Assembly: GCA_010015805.1 (NCBI GenBank)
Contig: ML978143.1
Coordinates: forward strand, 124,001-188,000
Source of the DNA: Rhizodiscina lignyota
Taxonomy: Eukaryota > Ascomycota > Dothideomycetes > Aulographales > Rhizodiscinaceae
Direction: 5' to 3'
Length of the DNA: 64,000 nucleotides
Each line of letters opens with the position of its first letter. Within the stretch, counting starts at the first letter, position 1. Both the position numbers and the translations under genes were made by a program. Positions 50,612-64,000 of this stretch are shown piece by piece. A model generated the notes under the pieces. The model made no database searches and was not told where the DNA came from. It saw nothing but the letters and a program-made list of their open reading frames with translations.

Positions 50612-53600
50612 ATGCTACCACCAGGCCGTCGGCGCATCTCTACCCTCCCTCTCGCTATCCTCGCCCTCCTCCTCTTCACCTCCACCGCCTCAGCCGCATC
50701 TGCAGTCCTTGGAATCGACCTAGGCACCGAATACATCAAAGCCGCCCTCGTGAAACCTGGCATTCCCCTCGAAATCGTCCTCTCTCGAGACTCCAAACGC
50801 AAAGAAGCCGTTGCCGTGGCGTTCAAACCAGCAGGCACCGGCAGAAATGTCAAGGTCGCAGAGGGTGAATACCCAGAACGCCTGTACGGCAGCGATGCCA
50901 TGGCGCTCACCGCGCGGCGACCAGACGATGTCTATGTCAACTTGAAGCAGTTGCTTGGACTGCCGATAGATGCGGCTGAGGTAAAGGAATACCAGAGCAG
51001 ATATCCTGCGCTGCAGGTTGTCAAGCAGGAAGGGCGCGACGCCGTTAGCTTCGAGAGCCCGAGCTTCAACAAGCTGGACGTGCCATTCTCAATCGAGGAG
51101 ATTCTCGCTATGGAGCTCAAGAACGTCAGGCAGAATGCGCAAACGCTAGCCGGGAAAGGCCACGCAATCAACAACGCAGTCTTTACGATCCCAGCGTTCT
51201 ACACTGCTGACGAGCGGCGCGCCGTGGAGCTCGCGGCCGATTTGGCGGGCTTGAAAGTGCTCGGCATGGTCACGGATGGCCTGGCGGTTGGTATTAACTA
51301 TGCGACGACCAGGACGTTCCCGAGCATCAATGAAGCGGCGAAGGATGGGACGATGGGCAAGCCGGAGCATCATATGGTTTTCGATATGGGAGCGGGTTCG
51401 ACGACTGCGACAGTGTTAAAGATGCAAGGACGGACGGTGAAGGACGTTGGCCGTTTCAACAAGACAATCCAAGAGGTCATGGTTTTGGGCAGCGCATGGG
51501 ATAAGACGCTTGGTGGAGATACATTAAACAGGGCCATCGTTGCGGACATGGTAGGCCAGTTTGTGGACTCGTCTGCAGCGAAGAGCGCTGGTGTAGAGGC
51601 GGAGAAAGTCAAGGCTCATGGCCGCGCGAATGCAAAGCTGTGGAAAGATGCTGAGCGTCTCAGACAAGTCTTGAGCGCCAATCAGGAGGCAAGCGCTAGC
51701 TTTGAGGGACTCTTCGAGGACGTTGATTTCCGGTACAAACTCTCCAGAGGACAGTTCGAAGAGCTGGGATCCAACTTTGCGGAGCGCATCGACAAGCCTA
51801 TCACGCAGGCGCTTGAAGCAGCGAAACTGAAGATGGAGGATCTCGACTCCATCATTTTGCACGGAGGCGCAGTTAGAACACCAATGATTCAAAAGAAGCT
51901 GGAATCTCTTGTTGGGGGAGACGCGAGCAAGCTGAGGAGTAATGTCAATGCCGATGAGGCCGCCGTGTTTGGAGCCGCTTTCAAAGGAGCTGGATTGAGT
52001 CCCAGCTTCAGAGTTAAAGAGATCAAGGATACTGATGCCGCGAGTTACACTGCTGGCATCCGCTACATGGTCGATGGCAAAGAGAAGTCGCAGAAACTGT
52101 TCATTCCAACCAGCTTAATCGGTGCTGCCAAGCAAGTAACGCTGAAGAACTTGGACGATGTCGACTTTACGCTCTTCCAGCAAGTCCCAGCGGGCGAGAG
52201 ACCAGTCGTCAAGATACAGACAACCAATTTGACGGACTCAGTTAAGCAGCTGGTCGACAAGTTTAGCTGCGCGAAAGAGGAGATTGCAACTAAATTCAGC
52301 ATCAGACTTGATCCCGTGAATGGACTGCCGGAGGTTGTTCAAGGTACCGTGAGCTGCGAAATTGACGACGCGAAGAAAGGCAGCATTGCAGACAATGTAA
52401 AGGGTCTCTTTGGATTCGGTTCGAAGAAAGAGAAGGGCTCTCAAGAGGTGTTCAAGGACGGATTTAGTCCGGAGGAGCTCGGTCAACAGGCTGAGTCGTC
52501 GGAAACAGAGGCTTCAAAGTCCTCTTCCTCAACCCAAATCCTATCATCATCTGCAACGGCGGAAGCCAAATCAGAGACTCTGAAGAAGCGAACTGAAACT
52601 GTTAATATCGCATTCGTTACTACACCACAGGGCCTTGAATCGCCGTCAGAGAAGGAACTGAAGCGGATGAAGGACCGGTAAGCTTTAGCCGTTGAAAGGC
52701 GTATTCTCATTAATGCTAATTGCCAATAGGTTGACTGCATTTGACGCATCCGATGCTGCTCGAGTGCAGCGATCTGATCTGCTCAACTCACTAGAAGCTC
52801 TCACCTACCGCGTCCGCGATTGGCTCGAAGATGCAGCTTTCACCGCATCGGCCACCGCATCGGAACAAAGCTCCCTAAAGGCCCTTGCCAAGGAGGCCGG
52901 TGAATGGATTTATGGAGATGGAGCACACGCCAATGTGAAAGCGCTCAAGGAGAAATTGAAGGGCCTGAACGACATCCTTGGACCCATCCAGAAGCGGCGA
53001 GATGAGGCAACCAAGCGACCGGAGCAAATTAAACTCCTCCAGGATGCCCTGGATCAAACCAAGGCCATGGCTGCGGTCGTGAAGGAATCCTTGGAAGAGG
53101 CAGCCGCGAAAGCCAAGGAAGAAGGTGAGGCAGCACTGTCCGCAGCAGAGGCATCTGCTTCCTCTGTGGCTTCCGCGGCTTCGGAAGAGGCTTCCTCTGC
53201 AACTTCTGCTGTGGAAGGGGATGAATCATCTTCATCTTCATCTTCCGCTACTGCAAGTCCGTCACCCTCTGCGTCACCCGAGAGCTTCTTCCCTACGTAC
53301 ACTCCCGAGGATCTCACAGCAATCACATCCGTATACGACGACATTTCCGAGTGGCTGTCCGAGAAGCTCGCGTTGCAGCAGAAGCTCGGGCCCTCAGACG
53401 ACCCCGCAGTGCTTTCGACGGATCTGGAAGCAAAAGCAAAGGAGCTGAACAAGGCGCTTATGGACGTGATTCAGCGGAAGATCTACACGCCCCCGAAGAA
53501 GCCGAAGAGCAAGTCTTCGAAGTCGACAAAGTCGAAGACGAAGAGCAAGGGCAAGAAGGACAAAACATTGTCCGATACGAAGGAGGCGGAGGCAAAGACT

Positions 53601-53672
53601 TCTGAAGCAGCGGGTCCCACGCCGGAAGCAGACCCCTCTGCTGCGAATCCGCCGAAGCATGAGGAGTTGTAA
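50612..53672 (+). CDS. LHS1: ER lumenal Hsp70-like chaperone Lhs1 (GRP170 type)
   Basis: Large ER chaperone of the Hsp110/GRP170 branch, nucleotide-exchange partner of Kar2/BiP in protein import and folding. Exons: 50612-52677 and 52730-53672 (52-nt phase-2 intron), giving 1002 aa. The signal peptide covers residues 1-31 (ILALLLFTSTASAASA). The ATPase domain begins VLGIDLGTEYIKAAL, with FDMGAGSTTATVL as phosphate-2 loop and IILHGGAVRTPMIQKKLE as the adenosine motif. The substrate and helical domains follow, separated by Ser/Glu-rich linkers. The protein ends HEEL, a variant of the HDEL retrieval signal. Acidic and Lys-rich low-complexity tracts before the end are normal for the family. Confidence 0.95.
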
Positions 53673-54117
53673 ATTTCGGGGCCATTGAATGGAATTGTCC
53701 CGCGAGGGGCTTGGTCATGAGCTAGTCTTGCATACCCTGGAGTCTGGAAGATCAATGTTTTAGAAGGCGTGAATTGTTTCGAAACCTGTCACATTCTTTT
53801 TTTCAACTTGTGTGTTTTGAAATGTGATGTGATGTGACTGTGTCGTGGGGAAGATAGGCGAGGCAAGCCATGCTTGCAGCCATGCTTGCCCCTGATTTCC
53901 AGATGAGCCGATCTTTAAGCCACCACAGTCGAGTCCTTGACGCGTCAAAATTTCCTTTAATTTCCGTCACGTGCTCACGCGTTTTGGTATTCCGCAGTTT
54001 ATCTCTTATACTTTCGTCGATATTGGAACATCCATTCAACACTGAAGAAAGCTCAAAACGGCTAAAAGCAAATACTCATCAGCGGCTACGTCTAATTCAA
54101 CTTTTCCGAAGACCCCA
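53673..54117. promoter_or_regulatory. Promoter of array gene A with MCB-type elements
   Basis: 445 bp between LHS1 and array gene A. Two exact ACGCGT sites lie at 53940-53945 (inside the perfect palindrome TTGACGCGTCAA, 53937-53948) and 53977-53982, with a CACGTG between them. ACGCGT is the MluI cell-cycle box bound by MBF in yeasts; its use here is inference. Confidence 0.5.
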
Positions 54118-56307
54118 ATGACTTCTGGAACCTCGAAAGGTTCGCGCACGTACAAGGCAGAGTTCTTGCCACCAACGAAGCCAAAACGAACGCGACTTCT
54201 TGAGGATGACCAACACGATCTTATTGACCAAGCAGATCGCCAGACTCTTCGCTATTATGCCAACAGAATCAAGAATGCAAGACCGGACTTGCGTCAAATG
54301 CTGTATCAATTTCTCTGCCAAGAATTGCCCAAAGAGGACTTGCGGACGAACTCCCCCCACCCAATGTGAGTAGTAACAGTCCCGCATTTCAAGGTAGCAC
54401 TAACTTTGTCGACAGCACTTCATCCGCAGCCTCGCACTCTGTCGTTCAATCCACTTCATCTGTATTCCCACAGTCTCTGCGCGTAGCGCGGCACCGACCA
54501 TCCTCGCCAGTAATCTTAGACCTGGGTGAAGGGTCGAGTGCAGATAACAGTCCTGCTCAATCCCCTATTTTTGATTCTCCAGAGGATGAGGGACGCCGAT
54601 TTTTATCAAGCCCAACATACAATTCGGATAGTATTACTACTCCTGCGCCTTCGAAACATTCGGCAAACGTAACTAGCAGCTCACAAATCAGAAGCAGTCC
54701 ACCACAAAATTCAGGACTGGTAGCAGGATCGTCTCGGTGTCTGATCCGTGCCGACACAGACGACTGGCAACCGCCGCAGGATATCGACGATTGGGCCATC
54801 TTTGCGAGACTGGACAGCACTCCCAGAAGTCAGCGGAGAAGTTCATCGCGGTATGAAGCCACACGTAATAGTCCATTAGGATCGTCTCCGGCTCATGACA
54901 AGATGACGAGAGATGTTGCTCAGAGTGCTTCAAACTCTGTCTCGACTCCTCGTTCCGTTCAGGCGGGAGGTGTTGAGCATCATTCTTCAAAATCGACACT
55001 TACATCCGAAGCGCATCCCAAAGCAAGTTCCGTGAGGGTTGCCCAAAGGCGAACAATTTCCCATGTATCTGAAACTCCTTGTCTAGTAGAACAATCTTCC
55101 TCATCGTTGAAGAGAAAGGGAGAAGAACCTCAGTACATAATGCAGCAGAAGTTAGGCTCTACAACTGGAAATAGGAGCTCTTCTCCAGAATCCAACAATC
55201 AACAGGATGCGTCAGAGGCGGAAAGGCTTCTTCAGATGTTCGGGCCTAGGACTCATCGGCGTGCTGAAGGCACTGTCAACGCTACACCACAAATGCACGA
55301 TCGTCATGCCGCAAAAGATGCAAGTGCGCCTTCACCGAAGAGGCAATCGTGCCGCTCTCTCACGCAAAGACCTCATTCTCAGCACAGGAGAGCGCCCACC
55401 ACGTTAGATTCACAATGCAGTGAACAGGACTCGGAGGTAGTACGTGCGATACTTCAAACATCGTCCAGCAACAAAGGCAAGATGCCAATGCCAGTTACTA
55501 CAACTACAATGTCTGGTAATTTTACCAACCAATCTGAGTCTTCATCTTCAATAGCGGCTCAATCCCTCCAGGCTGGGTCTACGTCAAAGTCACATGCTGG
55601 AACTCGAACTATGCGTGATGGAAAGGTACCTGACGGGCCCTTACTCGTTACCAACGACTTCCACGATCAGAACAAAAGGTGCGCAACGTGTCCACCAGAT
55701 CCCAGAGCAAACGGTAGTCGAAAAGCCGGACAGCCTTTGATTTGCAAACACAGACTTCCCCTCTGTGAGACTGCGCCAAATGCACACTGTGCAGAAGGAT
55801 CCGGGAGAGGTGGAAGACAGTGGACCGATTCGGCTGAATCAAAACCTCTGGAACGCAACTCCGAGCGAAACAAGGAAAATAGTAATAACTCGCCCACAAA
55901 AGATCACCTGCAAACGTCGAATATCTCTGCTGTCTCTTCTACCCGGGCGGTGGAGGAACTCAAGCGGAAGTATGAAGACGAGATGTACGTATCTCTGTGC
56001 GCGAACTGTGAAGAATCGCTCTATGTGTATCCTGACCAGACTGACTTCGGCAAATGCTATGGCCATTCGGGTATGACAAAGCCTATTTTCACTCAATATT
56101 GACTGCTCACAGGAATCAGGGAAGAGACAGATTATACGGAAGCATTCGACATGGAAAGACCGCAGAAATTGGACGCATGAGGCAGCATTTCCTGTTCCGC
56201 CAGATGCCATGAAGTGGACATGCTGTAAGAAGGCTGGAACGATGAAACGCTGCAACTACAGAGGGCCGCATGTCCCTGTGGACTCAAAGCGACCCAGGCA
56301 GGATTAA
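54118..56307 (+). CDS. Array protein A, CHORD-like zinc module
   Basis: Unrecognised family; first member of the tandem array. Exons: 54118-54365, 54416-56070, 56120-56307, giving 696 aa. The short helical N-terminal segment is at about 35-70 (DLIDQADRQTLRYYANRIKN, then PDLRQMLYQFL), aligning with the other copies. The middle 500 residues are Ser-rich, with few hydrophobic positions and scattered basic patches. The C-terminal module reads CANCEESLYVYPDQ ... GKCYGHSGK, then KWTCCKKAGTMKRCNYRGPH. The pairs and final C/H fit two zinc sites as in CHORD (YHPG ... W.CC ... GC ... H). The last intron is phase 1 and falls right after the His; acceptor 56119 is required, since the nearer CAG at 56112 leads to an early stop. 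Nuclear role inferred only from composition. Confidence 0.8.
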
Positions 56308-56928
56308 GGCTGTCTATAAGAGAAATAGCCACGTGAATCTTTGGTGTCGCACGTGAGCAACACTTCGACTTATCAGATCAGTGGGCGCACAGTCATGCGT
56401 AGACTTTTCAGTCAAGCGTAGACTCCACACACATTCGTTGGAGTTCTCAGGCCCGCGTGACTTTTCAGTCCTGTGCGTGGTGTCAGTCTTTTGTGATGCA
56501 GACAAGCGCTAATGAAATATCGCGACGCGTTTATCTTACTATGTTTAGTATAAATTTTGCTTTAGTTTGATAATACTAGGCGTTGGTTGGCTTGCCATGA
56601 CCCAACCAGTTACTCTATCCAGCATGCGTGTCACATTATTGTTTGCATCAGTTCAGAGCACATTTCGAGTATGCACAATTTTTCGCACTGAGCACAGCCC
56701 ATGACTCAAATTTACTCTTTAAAGCCCCTTTACTTATTACCCTGTCGTCCCTCAACTGTTTCTCAGCCCCTTAACGCGTGGTATGTTCCCCTCTTCAGCG
56801 CAGTATTCGCGCAACGCTCAACGGGGAAACACTCTGCACATCCGCTTTCGCAGTTATTGAACCGTCATATACCGTCTCTATTTTCTCGCTTTCATCAAGT
56901 CTCATCCACATCCGTTGATGAAGTCAAT
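56308..56928. promoter_or_regulatory. Promoter of array gene B with MCB-type elements
   Basis: 621-bp spacer. Exact ACGCGT at 56525-56530 and 56774-56779, and a pyrimidine-rich leader before the start at 56929. The open frame from 56701 runs through here but is probably untranslated leader. Confidence 0.5.
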
Positions 56929-57924
56929 ATGTTACGTTACAATGGAGGCCCTCACGATCCCCTTGTAAACAGGATGGAATTTGCGTCCACCAGGCAGTTT
57001 CGATTTGCCCTCAAAGAGATGCTCAAACACCACCCGAGTTTGGATGGGTTCATTCTTCCTGTGAATCTTCCAGATGTTCAATCATCATCAGGGTGAGGGC
57101 GATGCAACTGCAGAAGTGCATAATTGGATCTAATGATTCCCAGACATTCGTTGAATGCGACGCCATATCCCTCCGCATTTTCTCGTCGTGTACAGCCGCT
57201 GAGACCTGCGATATTATCGAATTCAACAGTTGCTTCAACCACGTCATCAAGGAGAAAAGCAAACATCACGACGTCCAATACTTCTTCCCAGGAAGTGATT
57301 GACTTGACGAAAGATTCTCCAGTGCGGCGCAGGAATAACCGGAGGACGGAGATTCTATGCCAACCCGGGTCACCTTCAAACCCTTCTGACGCCGAAATGC
57401 CAACATCTTCCACAAGCCCTGGGCACCAGAAGATTGCCGGCGTGTCCACAGTCGCAAAGTCATTTACTACCATCAATCAAGAGACTACGGTCGCTTCTCG
57501 TCGAGCGGACAAGTGCAAACGTAAAGCAACAACAGCGGAGGACATCCCTCCAGACGCGAAAGATCTAGCACCAGAGAGCCCCTCCGTAAAGAAACGGAAG
57601 TCTCCAGGCAAAAAATGTGAGAGATGCAAGTGTATCGTTCCCAGGGAGCAGTTCTCGGAGACATGTTATTACCATAAAGGTAAATTCCGCATATGTATAC
57701 TGAGTGGTCAAGATCTTGTCTACTAACTGAACTTCGCAGAGGAAATATTGAAGGGTGATCAGTGTATTCATCCTTGCTGCAGTCCGGACAGCAATGGATG
57801 TCAAGAGGCAGCGGAACATCGATTTGCCTCCAGAAAATCGAGTACGAGGAAATCGGAGTGTGAAAGACTTCAGGAAGATCTCCGTCTAGTTCCCATGGTT
57901 CGACGCCATCGTCTAATGGCCTGA
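56929..57924 (+). CDS. Array protein B, CHORD-like zinc module
   Basis: Shortest complete member, 294 aa. Exons: 56929-57092, 57144-57679, 57740-57924. N-terminal helical segment NRMEFASTRQFRFALKEMLK, then HHPSLDGFILPV. The middle is Ser/Thr-rich; it contains SQEVIDLTKDSPVRRR, where EVIDLT resembles a SUMO-interacting motif, and several Lys/Arg clusters (KKRKSPGKK) resembling nuclear localisation signals. Zinc module: CERCKCIVPREQFSETCYYHK, continuing after a phase-1 intron as EEILKGDQCIHPCCSPDSNG and CQEAAEH. The first intron is phase 2. The upstream in-frame ATG at 56701 would add 76 residues; I chose 56929 because it follows the pyrimidine-rich leader and matches the other copies' layout. 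Confidence 0.78.
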
Positions 57925-58485
57925 GATATGTGGCAGACAGCAACGACATTGCAATTCCTCATCCGTGTTGCGCATTTTCAGATTACTTCTCCGGATTATA
58001 CAAGTAGTTCGATGTCTTTCACTTTAGCTCATTGCCAGTGAAATTCGATTCTAGTCGAGCTCTTTTGCCATCCAGTATAATACGGGATCACATTTCGAAA
58101 GTGATTACGGAGTGCCATTTTTGAAGCCGCTTGCAGTGATTCCATTCTTTCAGAGCTTTACTTTCCAGTCGAATATAATCGTAAAAATTACGGCCAAGGA
58201 ACCTTCAGGTCGGTAATTCAGGGCTGAAATGTGATGGCTATGAACAGGGTAATACCCCTGAATCAAACAACCACATGGCGCCGATCCTTGCAAGGTGTTA
58301 CACCACAGCGAAAACACGGGGAGACGCGACGTCGCGGCCTCTGCACTTGCCGCGTCAAGCTATCCTTCAGTTTCATTCTTCAAAGACCATACCGACGGCG
58401 CTGTGCACTCCAGCTCTCATCTATCGTTGTTTTGCTTCTAGACTATCTGTCTCGCATCGTCAGCCTCTTACGCTTAGAGTACGCT
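57925..58485. promoter_or_regulatory. Promoter of array gene C with ACGCGA elements
   Basis: 561-bp spacer. ACGCGAC at 58324 overlaps the perfect palindrome CGCGACGTCGCG (58325-58336), and the reverse complement of TTGACGCG lies at 58351-58358. No exact ACGCGT here. Confidence 0.45.
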
Positions 58486-60120
58486 ATGCCTTCGAAGGTA
58501 CAGAAGTCGCGACAAGCTCCCAAGAAAGTGAAGAGCAGACCCCTTGCACTCAAGGTTCTGCAGAATGCCATCGATCGCGCGACTGAGTCCCAGATGCGCC
58601 ATGCGCTGAACATGATCGGATGGTATAATGACGACCTAAGGCATGAAATCGTCAAGCACGTGTCTGTCAAAATACCGGACATTCAGAGTACCAGAACACG
58701 ACAACCAAAGGCCATAACTCAGTAAGTTACATGAATTAAGCGAATTCGCACTCAGAACTAATTAGTGGGGCCAGAGCCTCTCATCTGCTTCCATCACCGG
58801 ACACGGAACTCAGTACAACAGGCGGACAAATTGTCCTCGGTCCTCCGGAAACTTCCAATGAAGCGAAAACATCGAAATTCCTCAAAGATATGGATAACCC
58901 AGGCACATCCAGCGACTCTGGTGACGATGACGACTCCGATCCCCCTCCTAGCGTCGGATCTAAACCCCTGAAGGTGGCGAGGAAGAAGCGAAAGGTGGAA
59001 GATGAAATTCACAAGCTTTCCACTATTTCCAAACAAAATATCGACCCGCAAATTACTTCAGTTAAACGACCCACATGTGAGCCTAGGCTTGGTGAGAGTG
59101 CAAATGCTCCAAGCAACTCCAATGCCTCTGGCTCCTCATCCTCGGACTCGGACTCAGACTCAGACTCGAGCTCTTCAGACTCAGATTCTGATGTCTCGTC
59201 TTCTGCCTCCGTCGATGACCAGAGTCGACCACCAGACATCCAGGCAAGCCAAGGGCCGACCTCTACCAAGTCTCGAGAAGAGATAAAATCCACCTTGTAT
59301 GGGCCAGCCTCATACCATGCGCAATTTCAAGCACGAACACCGAAGACAAGTGTCTCTCGCAAGGGAAATACAGCCTCGTCCTCTACAGTAGAGCCTTTCC
59401 CATCAAGCATCTTGAAGCATACGCCACACACACCACTGTCAAACGAATCGGTGAGAGGACCGCAATCGGAGCGGCGGAAGAGATGCGCAAATTGCAAACA
59501 ACTTTTCCAGTCCGATCAACGACGAGTCGTTGGTGAATGCAGATATCACCCTCGTAAGCCCTCTGAACCTCGATCATTTGATCGATCTGCTAATTTATTT
59601 CCAGAAGAGTCTATTCGCCATCCAGACGATTCCGACGATGATTTCACTCCCATGGCGTTTGGTTCCCGGCCACGCAGCGGAGGGGAGCGATACATATTCC
59701 CTTGCTGCAATGGACCGAGTGGATCGAACGGATGTATTATCGGCTGTCATGTTGACAAAAGGACGAAAAGAACACAATTCGGCGGCATCCAAAAGAAGTT
59801 CCACACTCCTGAGAGGCGAGTTCGCTGCCAAAAATGTGAGAAGCTGTTCTTTCGAAATAAGACTTTCCCAGGGGACTGCCAATTCCATCTCCGTGAGTTG
59901 TTCTCTTTGAAGACGAGCTATATCGCATGTTCTAACGTGGCGAATAGAAGCTCTTATCCCAAACGAGAACAGCGATTGGTGGTTTCAGCCGAAATCAGGA
60001 ACATATCCGAAGGGGCTTGATGGCCCATTATGGGCATACATTTATCCATGTTGCCACGGCACTGGAGAGTCGGCGGGCTGTAGACTGGGAAAGCACATAC
60101 AACCGCCAGCACGTAGATAG
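58486..60120 (+). CDS. Array protein C, duplicated CHORD-like zinc module
   Basis: 494 aa in four exons: 58486-58721, 58766-59553, 59605-59892, 59948-60120. The N-terminal helical segment is VLQNAIDRATESQMRHALNM, then NDDLRHEIVKHV. A Ser/Asp tract follows (SSSSDSDSDSDSSSSDSDSD, about 160-180). Two zinc modules come in series: CANCKQLFQSDQRR ... GECRYHP with PCCNGPSGSNGCIIGCH, then CQKCEKLFFRNKTFPGDCQF-H with PCCHGTGESAGCRLGKH. Each is cut by a phase-1 intron just after the YH or FH pair, so module and intron were copied together. Intron 59554-59604 is 51 nt and stays open, so its retention would only add 17 residues. Confidence 0.8.
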
Positions 60121-60758
60121 GGAGATCAATACATGCAGGATCAGCAGATAGACTTCTCCTTTGCCTAATGCTCTTCAGCAGTTAGAGATTGGTTGTGAGA
60201 ATTTCTTGCTTCTCGTCATAAACATCAGTGATTTATGAGAGGCATGAACGGTTGAGACGAGTGAGAAGCAAGGAAAATCAGACGGGTAAGTTAAAAACTG
60301 TCTAGCGCAGACGCCACCGGAGACTTGAAATGCTCTTCATCCCACCCTGCTCCTCCGCAGGTCTCATTGCTCCCCTCAACGCTTGGAATGTAACATGTTG
60401 ATTTCGAGTTGCGAAACTAATACATAAATTACATCTAAGAAATCATGATCCTTAGCTATGCTTATTCATTGCGGTATTTCTACAGCCTCTCTCTGTATCA
60501 AAAATATGATGTCTCCTGATGATCCGATCCTGAATCGAGGCGAGGCAATCCGAAGCCCCGCGGCGCCACCACCAATTTACTCTGTGAAACGGTGTCTCAA
60601 ATTATACACTACGACGTCTCGGCGATAGGCGAATTGGACGCGAAAATGACGCGAATTTCCCGCACGACGCGTAGACGTACCTGGGAGATCTCGGCCAAGC
60701 CAGTCATCTCAGTCTCCCGCCCACCATATCCTTTCGACTGGAGTCGTTGTGATAGATC
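60121..60758. promoter_or_regulatory. Promoter of array gene D with MCB/SCB-type elements
   Basis: 638-bp spacer. ACGCGAAA at 60638-60645, ACGCGAAT at 60649-60656 and exact ACGCGT at 60667-60672, all within 35 bp and about 100 bp before the ATG. ACGCGAAA combines MCB-like and SCB-like (CGCGAAA) cores. Confidence 0.55.
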
Positions 60759-62930
60759 ATGGCATCAGCCACTCGAACAGAGGAAGCAGACTCAATGTCG
60801 GAGTCTGAAGATGACGAGCAGTTCAACGCTCTTAATTTGGCACTTGCTGCCGAAAAGACCGCCGATGGTGAGGGAGTGCGCTGGGCTCTCACGATGCTAG
60901 GATACCATGCTCCTCACGCTGGCCCAACACTGGAAAGAATTATAGATCGATGTGGTCGAAGAAAAAAGCGCAATGATGAACAAAAGATGCTCCTGTGAAT
61001 CCACCCCTGATCTCCCACAGAATAGCAGTTGGCTAACATGATAAAGGACACCGGATTGTTCTCAACAACAACCTGAGGATGATGGCAATTGCGAAGATGA
61101 CGAACCAATATCAATACAGCTTCGAGATAGTCCGGCGGCTACAACGGCATCCAACGAGCCGATCAGTCCATTGCATTCTGCACATGCCGACGAGGACGAA
61201 GAAGATGCAATCATAGAGCCTGGATTGACTACTTCACCTTCGCCGAGTCCTTCTGATGATTCTGCGGTCGCAGAGGGTTACGAAAGAGACATTGCCGCGA
61301 GTAACGCTCTAAGCGTACAGAAGTTCAAAGATTTCAATCGGGCTCAAGAGAGCACCGCCGACGAGATGCCAGACGAGAGTTTTAGCTCACTTTTTGTTAC
61401 GCCGAATACTGCAGAGCAGAGAAAAGCTTGGAACGTTGAAAGATCGAGGGAGCCCTCAAATGGGTGCCAGTACGAGACCAACTCTTCAGAGACGCCTTGT
61501 CCGCCGGATAACTCAGCTATGTCCACGAAACTGAAGTGCAGTATTTCTGGAGATGCAGCCGAATCTTCAAGACATTTTCAATGGCCATCACACACCAGAC
61601 CCGGAATCCCGTTCGTGGAGTCACCATCTATACCAGCCTCAGCACAGACCTGTGGATCAGGAAAAGAACATTACCTTTACAGAAGTAGGCGTGGAGACTT
61701 CTGGCGACCGTCGCCATCTAGATATCAGCGTGATGGAAGCAATTTTGGTGCTAGGCGTTCATTAAGACATGCAAATCCCCATAATTGCGATTCTTCACCA
61801 CATGCTCAACACCAACCGACTGATCGTGCGCCCTTACCTCATCACGAGAGGAACATCAGGGACAATAGTGCTAGCAGTGCTGAGTCTTGGGATGGCGACC
61901 AAGAGCTGAGAGGAACCATGCAGCGAGTAGCGAATGGCGACCCCAGAGGAGATGTGATATCAGGCGCCATCACGACTTCGAGCCCCTCCAATGAAAAGCA
62001 AACAGTTCCAGGATCAGATCAGCGAGGCAACGAGGAGAATATTGCAAGGGGACCGCGGTTATCGAAACACCATGCACCGACCGATTCGGCTGAATTTAGA
62101 GCGGATGCAAATAGAGACGGAAGAGGAACCGGCACTGCACGCAAATCGAAACGTATTCGAGACGCTGAAGAAGCACGCCAGGCAGAGGAGCGACTAGAGC
62201 CTCTTGAGCGTAGCCCTGAGTTAGGGACTACACCAGTTCCTCCAACTCCGGATACAACGCAAGCTAATAGTCTCCAAGAAACCTTTCACCGACCAAAAGA
62301 ACTTTTAAGCGAGAAAGAAGGAGGCCCTCCGCTAGCTGAATCGCCACACCACACTGAATTCCCGGCACCTGCGGCGAACCTATCTGTGCGAAAAAGTCGG
62401 AAGAATGGGAAACGCTTAAAAAAGAAGCGCCGAGCTACTCAGTCAACTCCCGATTGCAAGCCCACCCCTGGTAGACGCAATTGCCAGCATGAACTGCCCC
62501 TTACCAACGTCGCCGAGGACGAACAACCTCCATTGAAACGCAGAAAGCTTCCAGCATCGCGGGAGTACAAGTGTCCAACTTGCGACCTACGACTTCATGT
62601 GTACGTCGGCCAGCAAACTTTCCGAGGAGGCTTATATCATCCCGGTGCGTTCGCGCGTATGGATAGAGAATGACACATTTAGAAGTTGAATGCTAATACC
62701 TGATAGGGCATCTTGAAAGAGACCTGGATCACTCGTGGTGGACTGGAGATGGCGTTGATACGTACAATGTGGGCAAGCGACCACCCGAAGAAGCGTACAA
62801 ATGGACTTGTTGCGGGGAGGTAGAAAACTGGCCCGCATGCAAACTACATGTGCACGAGTCGGAGATGTTTGATAGATCTGTCTTACCAGATAATTTTGAG
62901 GACTCTGACGTCGATGAAAATAGACCTTGA
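60759..62930 (+). CDS. Array protein D, CHORD-like zinc module lacking one Cys
   Basis: 685 aa in three exons: 60759-60994, 61047-62644, 62707-62930. N-terminal helical segment LNLALAAEKTADGEGVRWAL, then TMLGYHAPHAGPTLERII. A long Ser/Arg/Glu-rich, low-hydrophobic middle includes basic clusters (KNGKRLKKKRRATQ). Zinc module: CPTCDLRLHVYVGQQTFRGG then LYHPG, then after the phase-1 intron HLERDLDHSWWTGDG and YKWTCCGEVENWPACKLHVH. The YHPG and WTCC signatures are closest to true CHORD, yet the Cys before YH is replaced by Leu. The acidic tail ends DSDVDENRP. The first intron is phase 2 as in its neighbours. Confidence 0.8.
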
Positions 62931-63484
62931 AGTCCTGCCAAGCCGCCACGCAGAATGCTCGGTTCCGTTCGAGGAATCGAGCAAGGCTCATGCGCCTTTG
63001 TGTACTATGGGAACGACTCCCACACCTCCATGTAAAATGTTTGGCCTAAACACAAAAAGCATATTATTCTCACTCGATATCCAAGTCCGGAAATATTCGT
63101 GCGATCCTTGGTAAAGTTCACTGTGGCACTCGCTCGTCTCAAAAGCCCCCGTACTATATATCGGAATGGACGGTAAATTCTATTTAAAGATACATACTGT
63201 ACAGAACCTAGCCCTTGTCCATGGCAAGATATCTTAACTTCGGCACACCCCAAGAGCACGGTCTCGTTTCCCGCGCCAGCTCTCCTGAAAATCATATTTC
63301 ACGGCGGGACGTGGCGCGGGTCAACGCGTCACGCGTCGCGATGAATGAATTCCGTCCAAGCACCACTATATGTATCTTCCCCTCTGTAAACTTGATTTTA
63401 CGTTATGAGATCTAGCCCTTCAAATCCATGATTTAAGATATACTCGTCTCTAGTCACGCCCAGCAATCAAAGGGAAAATCCACA
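62931..63484. promoter_or_regulatory. Promoter of array gene E with paired MCB elements
   Basis: 554-bp spacer with two ACGCGT sites one base apart (63324-63329 and 63331-63336), about 150 bp before the ATG. Confidence 0.55.
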
Positions 63485-64000
63485 ATGCCACGAACATGGA
63501 GGGCTTGGTGCCCAAGACTTCAGCACAAGATTGATAACGCAAAACCTCGAAAAAGACGCAGAGCGCTGCGAAAACTACTGCGTCAAATGCCCCATCTTTC
63601 AGAGATCCTTTCTGAACTCTTGAAGCAGAAGGTGCCATTTGTGCAGAGCCTGAGAGTGGGGTATTCATTGCAACTTTTCCAAATACCTTACAGTCTACTC
63701 ACTAACAACAATACCCAGAGATAATATCTATTCGGCAGAGAACCGTAACCTAGCTGGATCAGGCGTTGGACATACTGCAGAAGAGGAGGACGAAGAGCCT
63801 GTAACATCTCCTTTCTCAGATCGCACGCCGAATTCAGGTCAAGCCGCCAGTGGAGTGTCAGAGAATGAAAGTCTCCTCGCGCAAGATGAAAGCGACCTCA
63901 CGTTCATGGATACTCAATCTGGGCCTGCTTCAAACCACACCCAGAGCCATAATAATACCCGTGCTTCTACATCTAAGCGCAATCACTATCCTTTTATTGG
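63485..64000 (+). CDS. Array protein E, 5' part only
   Basis: Fifth member, running off the window. Exon 1 (63485-63660) encodes RLQHKIDNAKPRKRRRALRK, then LLRQMPHLSEILSELLKQK, the clearest copy of the shared helical segment. The phase-2 intron 63661-63718 (GTATTC to CCCAG) matches the first intron of the other copies and opens exon 2. That exon is acidic and Ser-rich (AEEEDEEPVTSPFSD) and stays open to position 64000. The zinc module, if present, lies outside. Exon 1 alone stays open a few codons past the donor, to 63724. Confidence 0.72.

Follow-up and report, generated by a model that had tools for sequence, protein, structure and literature searches.

An array of eight diverged genes for putative stand-alone Rex3-type CHORD proteins at a single locus of Rhizodiscina lignyota

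Introduction

Zinc coordination in a CHORD module has been described for Rar1, in whose second module (CHORD II) one ion is held by Cys159, Cys164, Cys178 and His218 and the other by His181, Cys196, Cys197 and Cys213 (PMC2935968, section 6), with Hsp90 contacted through Phe187-His188-Asp189, Trp194 and a helix bearing Phe204, Phe207 and Met208 (PMC2935968, section 9). In 2025, the exonucleases Rex3/REXO1 were reported to carry a single CHORD within the architecture KIX-CHORD-DEDDh (PMC12129344). That report describes CHORD as mediating protein-protein interactions (section 8), and the sections of it drawn on here name no CHORD partner for Rex3/REXO1. In this study, we analysed a 64,000-nucleotide stretch of the genome of the ascomycete Rhizodiscina lignyota (hereafter the window; C23:124001-188000, contig ML978143.1, in a genome of 33.4 Mb and 29 contigs), in which an array of genes for proteins with a zinc-type module begins, and compared this module with both kinds of CHORD.

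The array comprises eight genes (A to H) and nine modules, because gene C carries two. Their nearest relative in the genome appears to be the CHORD of its own Rex3, not that of Rar1 or CHP1, and the array proteins are predicted to be stand-alone, nuclease-free Rex3-type CHORD proteins, an architecture that is unnamed in the libraries we searched. No description of a stand-alone fungal family of this kind was found in the open-access PMC literature. Natural, diversified copies of a Rex3-type module standing alone could provide a route to the binding partner of that CHORD. The array also suggests that the Rex3 subtype of CHORD is not tied to the nuclease, and with it the CHORD superfamily would reach further than Hsp90 co-chaperones, a breadth that Pfam's current model does not capture.

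The array and its zinc-type modules

As judged from its sequence, the array is a tandem family of eight diverged, anciently duplicated genes at a single locus, which begins at window position 54118 and ends, in window-equivalent numbering, at about 70342. Genes A to E lie head to tail on the plus strand and are followed by F on the minus strand and by G and H on the plus strand (Table 1); F, G and H span about C23:189.4-194.3 kb, beyond the window. The original prediction had described at least five genes, A to E, on one strand, separated by spacers of 621, 561, 638 and 554 base pairs (bp), and the gene ends agree with it; extending the contig beyond base 64000, as it had proposed, brought the count to eight.

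The gene models use GT-AG introns, with the exception of the second intron of E, which was placed with a GC donor. The reading frame of A runs through its introns in phase 2 and phase 1, and a phase-2 intron closes exon 1 in six of the eight genes (A to F), with none in H. The first intron of D has the uncommon acceptor AAG. No in-frame GT-AG intron leads from the good GTAAGC donor of exon 1 of G to its module exon, there being weak donors only, and this gene may be decayed, unusually spliced or marked by an assembly error.

The spacing across the nine modules is C-x2-C-x(12-15)-C-x2-H-x(13-39)-CC-x(6-10)-C-x(4-5)-H. The module had been proposed for A to D, where it stands, with the narrower ranges x(11-14), CC-x(6-8) and C-x4-H; to these members we add a module in E that lies past base 64000, a second module in C, and F, G and H. 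Seven positions of the module alignment are invariant, and the third Cys is present in all but D, which has Gly there (window 62620-62646), so that one of the two zinc sites of D may be lost. The ligand order C C C H CC C H is complete in eight of the nine modules, and the eight zinc positions of Rar1 CHORD II are present, in order, in the same number. The ligands are the best conserved part of a module that is otherwise diverged (23-30% identity to the first module), and each module is predicted, from the order of its ligands alone, to bind two zinc ions. The distance from module to C terminus is 6-81 residues, except in H, where it is 357.

When the rows of each gene were removed in turn from the nine-module alignment, without realignment, and the remaining profile was searched against 3,782 six-frame open reading frames (ORFs) from 17 sources, seven of the nine modules were refound (E 1.5e-17 to 7.7e-10). 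Separate support for the module family, in eight of its nine members, comes from the position of an intron: a phase-1 GT-AG intron follows directly on C-x2-H-x in A, B, C1, C2, D, F, G and H. In E, an intron at the homologous place can be drawn only with a weak GC donor, chosen by homology, and a GT-AG intron placed 17 bases downstream is an open alternative. Because the C1 intron (window 59554-59604) has an open reading frame in register with its exons, a transcript retaining it would gain 17 residues in the loop without truncating the protein, and alternative splicing is possible at this site.

The family appears to be confined to this locus. A module consensus gave nine matches in the genome at E up to 10, all inside the array and corresponding to modules A, C1, C2, D, F, G and H; since it missed B and E, an equally divergent copy elsewhere could escape such a search. 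The modules of G, C2, E and D gave no credible match outside the array when used as queries against the genome. Weak matches on contigs C10 (E 0.17) and C4 (E 0.30) were rejected, being without the module pattern when examined by regular expression. Module C2, the sole module tried, found no relative in viral and prokaryote collections, and PHROGs and NCBIfam held nothing relevant.

The middle of protein A (window 54416-55990) has a second Cys/His-rich stretch, CATC...CKH...C...HC, ahead of its module, which could be a decayed module.

Kinship to the Rex3 CHORD

The genome's own Rex3 gene was located on contig C2 using a bait sequence. Matches in the PDB to ISG20L2, SDN1 and ISG20 back its exonuclease nature, and, judged by eye, it shows the DCEM-with-Y, DL and IQ marks given in the parts of PMC12129344 used here. 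The array profile aligned with the whole length of the Rex3 module, over 64 columns and with all ligands in register (hhalign, P 2.6e-6). The profile score of Rex3 was reached by none of 200 Cys/His-preserving shuffles, none of 200 full shuffles and none of 241 Cys/His-rich genomic decoys, the best of which was a CHP1-type CHORD gene (22.8, versus 33.9 for Rex3). A hidden Markov model search of the 3,782 ORFs placed Rex3 directly after eight array pieces (E 0.0052; next match, 0.64), and pieces of the CHP1-type gene were absent from the best 25 matches. Compared as single sequences with the array profile, the two CHP1-type CHORDs of this genome matched in the first lobe only (P 0.0027 and 0.0018); of 200 shuffles of each kind, 2 that preserved Cys/His and 1 full shuffle equalled the first, and none equalled the second.

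The organization of the modules can be set beside that of each described system. Like the Rex3/REXO1 CHORD, they have the order CCCHCCCH with C-x2-C, C-x2-H and C-x4/5-H, and seven of the eight array genes encode a single module, as do Rex3/REXO1. The C-x2-C of Rex3 is found in all nine modules and its CC-x8-C in seven (B has x6 and E has x10). Unlike Rex3/REXO1, the array proteins are clustered paralogues without a detected DEDDh nuclease or KIX domain, and their modules hold a phase-1 intron, whereas the module of the genome's own Rex3 lies in one open frame.

With the CHORDs of Rar1, CHP1 and melusin (PF04968), the modules share a two-lobed ligand order, C-x2-H ... CC ... C-x4/5-H, but they depart from these in C-x2-C, in CC-x(6-10)-C, in the missing Hsp90-contact helix and loop, and in that no CS domain was found. 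Both CHP1-type CHORDs of this genome have C-x4-C and CC-x15-C, spacings seen in none of the array modules, as well as an F-x2-F helix and an F-H-D/E loop, both of which are missing from all nine modules and from Rex3; binding of Hsp90 is thus not expected of the array proteins. Pfam (E up to 10) gave no CS domain in A to F and H, taken whole, or in two pieces of G, as the original prediction had claimed of its members. Elsewhere, at C20:46258-46879, the genome has a gene that encodes two Rar1-type CHORDs. An intron separates the lobes of the first CHORD of that gene, about 10 residues from the split point of the array modules.

No Pfam family rose above its cut-off in the array proteins. The nearest was CHORD (PF04968; gathering cut-off, 24.6 bits), which scored 21.8 bits (E 0.00029) on module E and 15.9 bits (E 0.02) on C1 and gave no match for any of modules A, B, C2, D, F, G and H. 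The module of the genome's own Rex3 likewise escapes this model at E up to 10. A search of the PDB with the nine-module profile, at E up to 10, gave a single match, to the CHORD protein 2yrt (E 0.087); adding Rex3 to the nine modules improved 2yrt to E 0.0058, the next match being a different zinc-finger protein at 3.2. The resemblance to CHORD that had been proposed for half of the module is borne out, but it covers all eight ligands and is closest to the Rex3 CHORD. Because of this nearest relative, the module can no longer be called unassigned, although the other part of that claim, that no named family accounts for these proteins, holds in that there is no Pfam model for them and the stand-alone architecture is unnamed in the libraries searched.

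Search for a nuclease

A phmmer search with the nuclease of the genome's own Rex3 gave E 0.54 for the best array protein, with Rex1 (5.9e-31) and Rex4 (8.9e-6) serving as positive controls, and the DCEM motif is in no array protein. Pfam found no nuclease in A to F, H or the pieces of G, a silence that proves little because Pfam also misses the genome's own Rex3 nuclease at E up to 10. Searching the genome with PF00929 gave three genes, which we take to be Rex2/oligoribonuclease-, Rex4- and Rex1-like, and Rex3 was not among them; PF15870 had a single match, at E 0.65.

The N-terminal segment

A common N-terminal segment, proposed in the original prediction for A to E, is less firmly indicated than the module. 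It appears to be shared by A, B and C, and by F as well; it is marginal in E and unsupported in D and G. The left-out E-values were 9e-11 (C), 2.4e-6 (F), 0.0046 (A), 0.0054 (B), 0.071 (E), 0.61 (D) and 62 (G), with H included in the alignment but outside this test. Searched against the genome, the segment of F matches itself and C only. The N-terminal profile had nine matches in the PDB, all at E 0.81 or worse. The segment of C was modelled as three short helices at low confidence (predicted local distance difference test [pLDDT], 62), and Foldseek found no match for this model.

Basic patches, SUMO-like motifs and promoters

A pattern search found basic patches in seven of the eight proteins, before or near the module in most of them, which suggests nuclear residence. 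SUMO-interaction-like motifs were found in A, B, F and H, that is, in four of seven proteins (G being left aside) versus a shuffle mean of 0.21; a plainer SUMO pattern occurred in three of the seven, a count reached in 9 of 2000 shuffles. We regard the patches and motifs as candidate leads and not as results.

The hexamer ACGCGT, which can also be read as a StuA site, lies at most 200 bp upstream of five of the eight genes (A, B, D, E and F). For comparison, it was present in 60 of 1360 background windows and, where ORFs of at least 150 amino acids outside the array served as crude stand-ins for genes, in 6 of 77 upstream regions. It was the top-ranked hexamer, with a binomial P of 8.4e-6 that becomes about 0.02, calculated by hand, after allowing for some 2,080 hexamers. 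The looser form W-CGCG-W is found for seven of the eight array genes versus 16 of the 77 other-ORF regions, and four further ACGCGT sites lie within the coding sequence of H. This hexamer is known as the MluI box, at which Mbp1 of S. cerevisiae acts in G1/S control, according to the part of PMC12565038 consulted. The sharing of an APSES/MCB-type motif hints at co-regulation of the array; common promoter ancestry could be another source of this sharing.

Proposed role and alternative explanations

The best explanation for these observations, and one that we consider probable, is that the array encodes eight nuclease-free Rex3-type CHORD proteins that act as nuclear docking adaptors. Each module would have the zinc topology of Rar1 CHORD II, with the first three Cys and the last His at one site and the inner His, the CC pair and the last Cys at the other, and would form a rigid head for docking to other proteins. 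The middle part, which is basic and Ser-rich and, to judge by its composition, disordered, would bear nuclear localisation signals, joined in some members by SUMO-interaction-like motifs; the short helical N terminus might serve for partner binding or self-association. Proteins of this design could be nuclear adaptors, perhaps for the partner bound by the Rex3 CHORD, and their genes might be turned on jointly by an APSES factor of the MBF or StuA type. We can extend this to a model in which the Rex3 docking module, freed of its nuclease, expanded into a set of eight co-regulated nuclear adaptors, one of them two-headed, that compete with or recruit the Rex3/RNA polymerase II processing machinery, perhaps at one cell-cycle or developmental stage; in so specific a form the model is speculative, and we think it doubtful.

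Several observations weigh against the adaptor explanation. The modules of B (E 0.15) and E (E 0.54) were not refound in the left-out test, indicating weak kinship to the rest, so that the expectation that one profile would recover all copies and place them near CHORD was borne out for the other seven. The module of E is also the nearest of all to Pfam's CHORD, at the sub-threshold score given above. A profile of four Rar1/CHP1 sequences matched the array profile over 28 columns, in the first lobe only (P 2.8e-5), and gave no match to Rex3 by itself (P 0.099). It is therefore the combined profile of the array and Rex3 that connects them to classical CHORD, by a match to the Rar1/CHP1 CHORD in both lobes (P 2.9e-7). 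As a single query against the genome, the Rex3 module finds itself only, which means that its link to the array is visible through a profile only, and the Rex3 yardstick is one sequence, this genome's own. A reading of the N-terminal segment as KIX was tried and rejected on comparison with the genome's own Rex3 (hhalign probability, 0.5%; P 0.11). The pattern used for basic patches found none in protein A, the SUMO-motif pattern was picked after the sequences had been seen, and the structure prediction for the module (pLDDT 56; predicted template modelling score, 0.18) was too low to judge the fold.

Small Cys-rich modules are easily over-read, and with B and E failing the left-out test it might be asked whether Cys and His have merely fallen into a similar arrangement by chance. 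The recovery of seven modules at E below 1e-9, an intron at one place in eight of the nine and the shuffle controls make this hardly credible; chance is refuted for the seven, and against it stand the spacing and intron for B and the spacing and the near-match to Pfam CHORD for E. The proposal that the array proteins are Hsp90 co-chaperones of the Rar1 or CHP1 kind draws on CHORD being the top Pfam match for modules E and C1 and on 2yrt being the sole PDB match of the nine-module profile. We rejected it as very improbable on the ligand spacing and on the contact helix and loop, missing from every module; moreover, no CS domain was found, and the genome has its separate two-CHORD gene of the Rar1 type on contig C20.

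The modules might instead be sequence-specific DNA-binding zinc fingers, making the array a set of transcription factors with a C-terminal binding domain. The basic patches of most members, the Ser-rich middles, the conservation of the ligands above the rest of the module and sub-threshold matches to zinc ribbons would all suit such proteins, but no DNA-binding zinc-finger family reached its Pfam cut-off, and for the domain of the nearest relatives, CHORD and the Rex3 CHORD, the role described is protein-protein interaction (PMC12129344, section 8), so we hold this to be unlikely. Still less expected, and in our view quite improbable, is the idea that the array evolves fast as a locus of conflict or self-recognition, or is a mobile-element derivative, with its diversity being the point. 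The low identity among modules, the range of protein sizes (294-696 amino acids), the inversion of one gene and the want of a clean join between exon 1 and the module exon of G could be read in this way, whereas the ligands and intron positions have been kept, the neighbours include Hsp70 and Dus, and direct repeats in this part of the window are at most 25 nucleotides long among the 20 of 29 repeat families listed.

Table 1. Positions of the array genes, their modules, ACGCGT sites and the upstream neighbour (window numbering unless marked C23; aa, amino acids)
Feature	Position	Strand	Details
Gene A	54118..56307	+	3 exons: 54118-54365, 54416-56070, 56120-56307; 696 aa
Gene B	56929..57924	+	3 exons: 56929-57092, 57144-57679, 57740-57924; 294 aa
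Gene C	58486..60120	+	4 exons: 58486-58721, 58775-59553, 59605-59892, 59948-60120; 491 aa
Gene D	60759..62930	+	3 exons: 60759-60994, 61047-62644, 62707-62930; 685 aa
Gene E	63485..64000, on to ~C23:188503	+	Exon 1 and part of exon 2 inside window; 302 aa
Gene F	start at window-equivalent 66657	-	386 aa
Gene G	start at window-equivalent 67313	+	
Gene H	start at window-equivalent 68336	+	650 aa
Module of A	55989..56283	+	C-x2-C-x15-C-x2-H-x35-CC-x8-C-x5-H; phase-1 intron inside; refound when left out, E 4.5e-11
Module of B	57604..57831	+	Short middle loop; phase-1 intron inside; left-out E 0.15, weak
Module C1 (first of C)	59478..59765	+	51-bp phase-1 intron; left-out E 3.1e-12
Module C2 (second of C)	59811..60108	+	Phase-1 intron at equivalent place; left-out E 1.5e-17
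Module of D	62560..62873	+	Phase-1 intron inside; third Cys is Gly; left-out E 7.7e-10
Two ACGCGT	53940..53982		178 and 141 bp upstream of A
ACGCGT	56774..56779		155 bp upstream of B
ACGCGT	60667..60672		92 bp upstream of D
Two ACGCGT	63324..63336		161 and 154 bp upstream of E
ACGCGT	C23:190765		Upstream of F
Hsp70 gene	50612-52681		Upstream of array

Neighbouring genes

Near the array lie the Hsp70 gene (Table 1), upstream, and a Dus gene, downstream. A second ORF, in another frame, comes immediately after the Hsp70 gene (region 50612-53672) and has no Pfam match; it looks like a continuation of the Hsp70 gene across an unmodelled intron near 52680.

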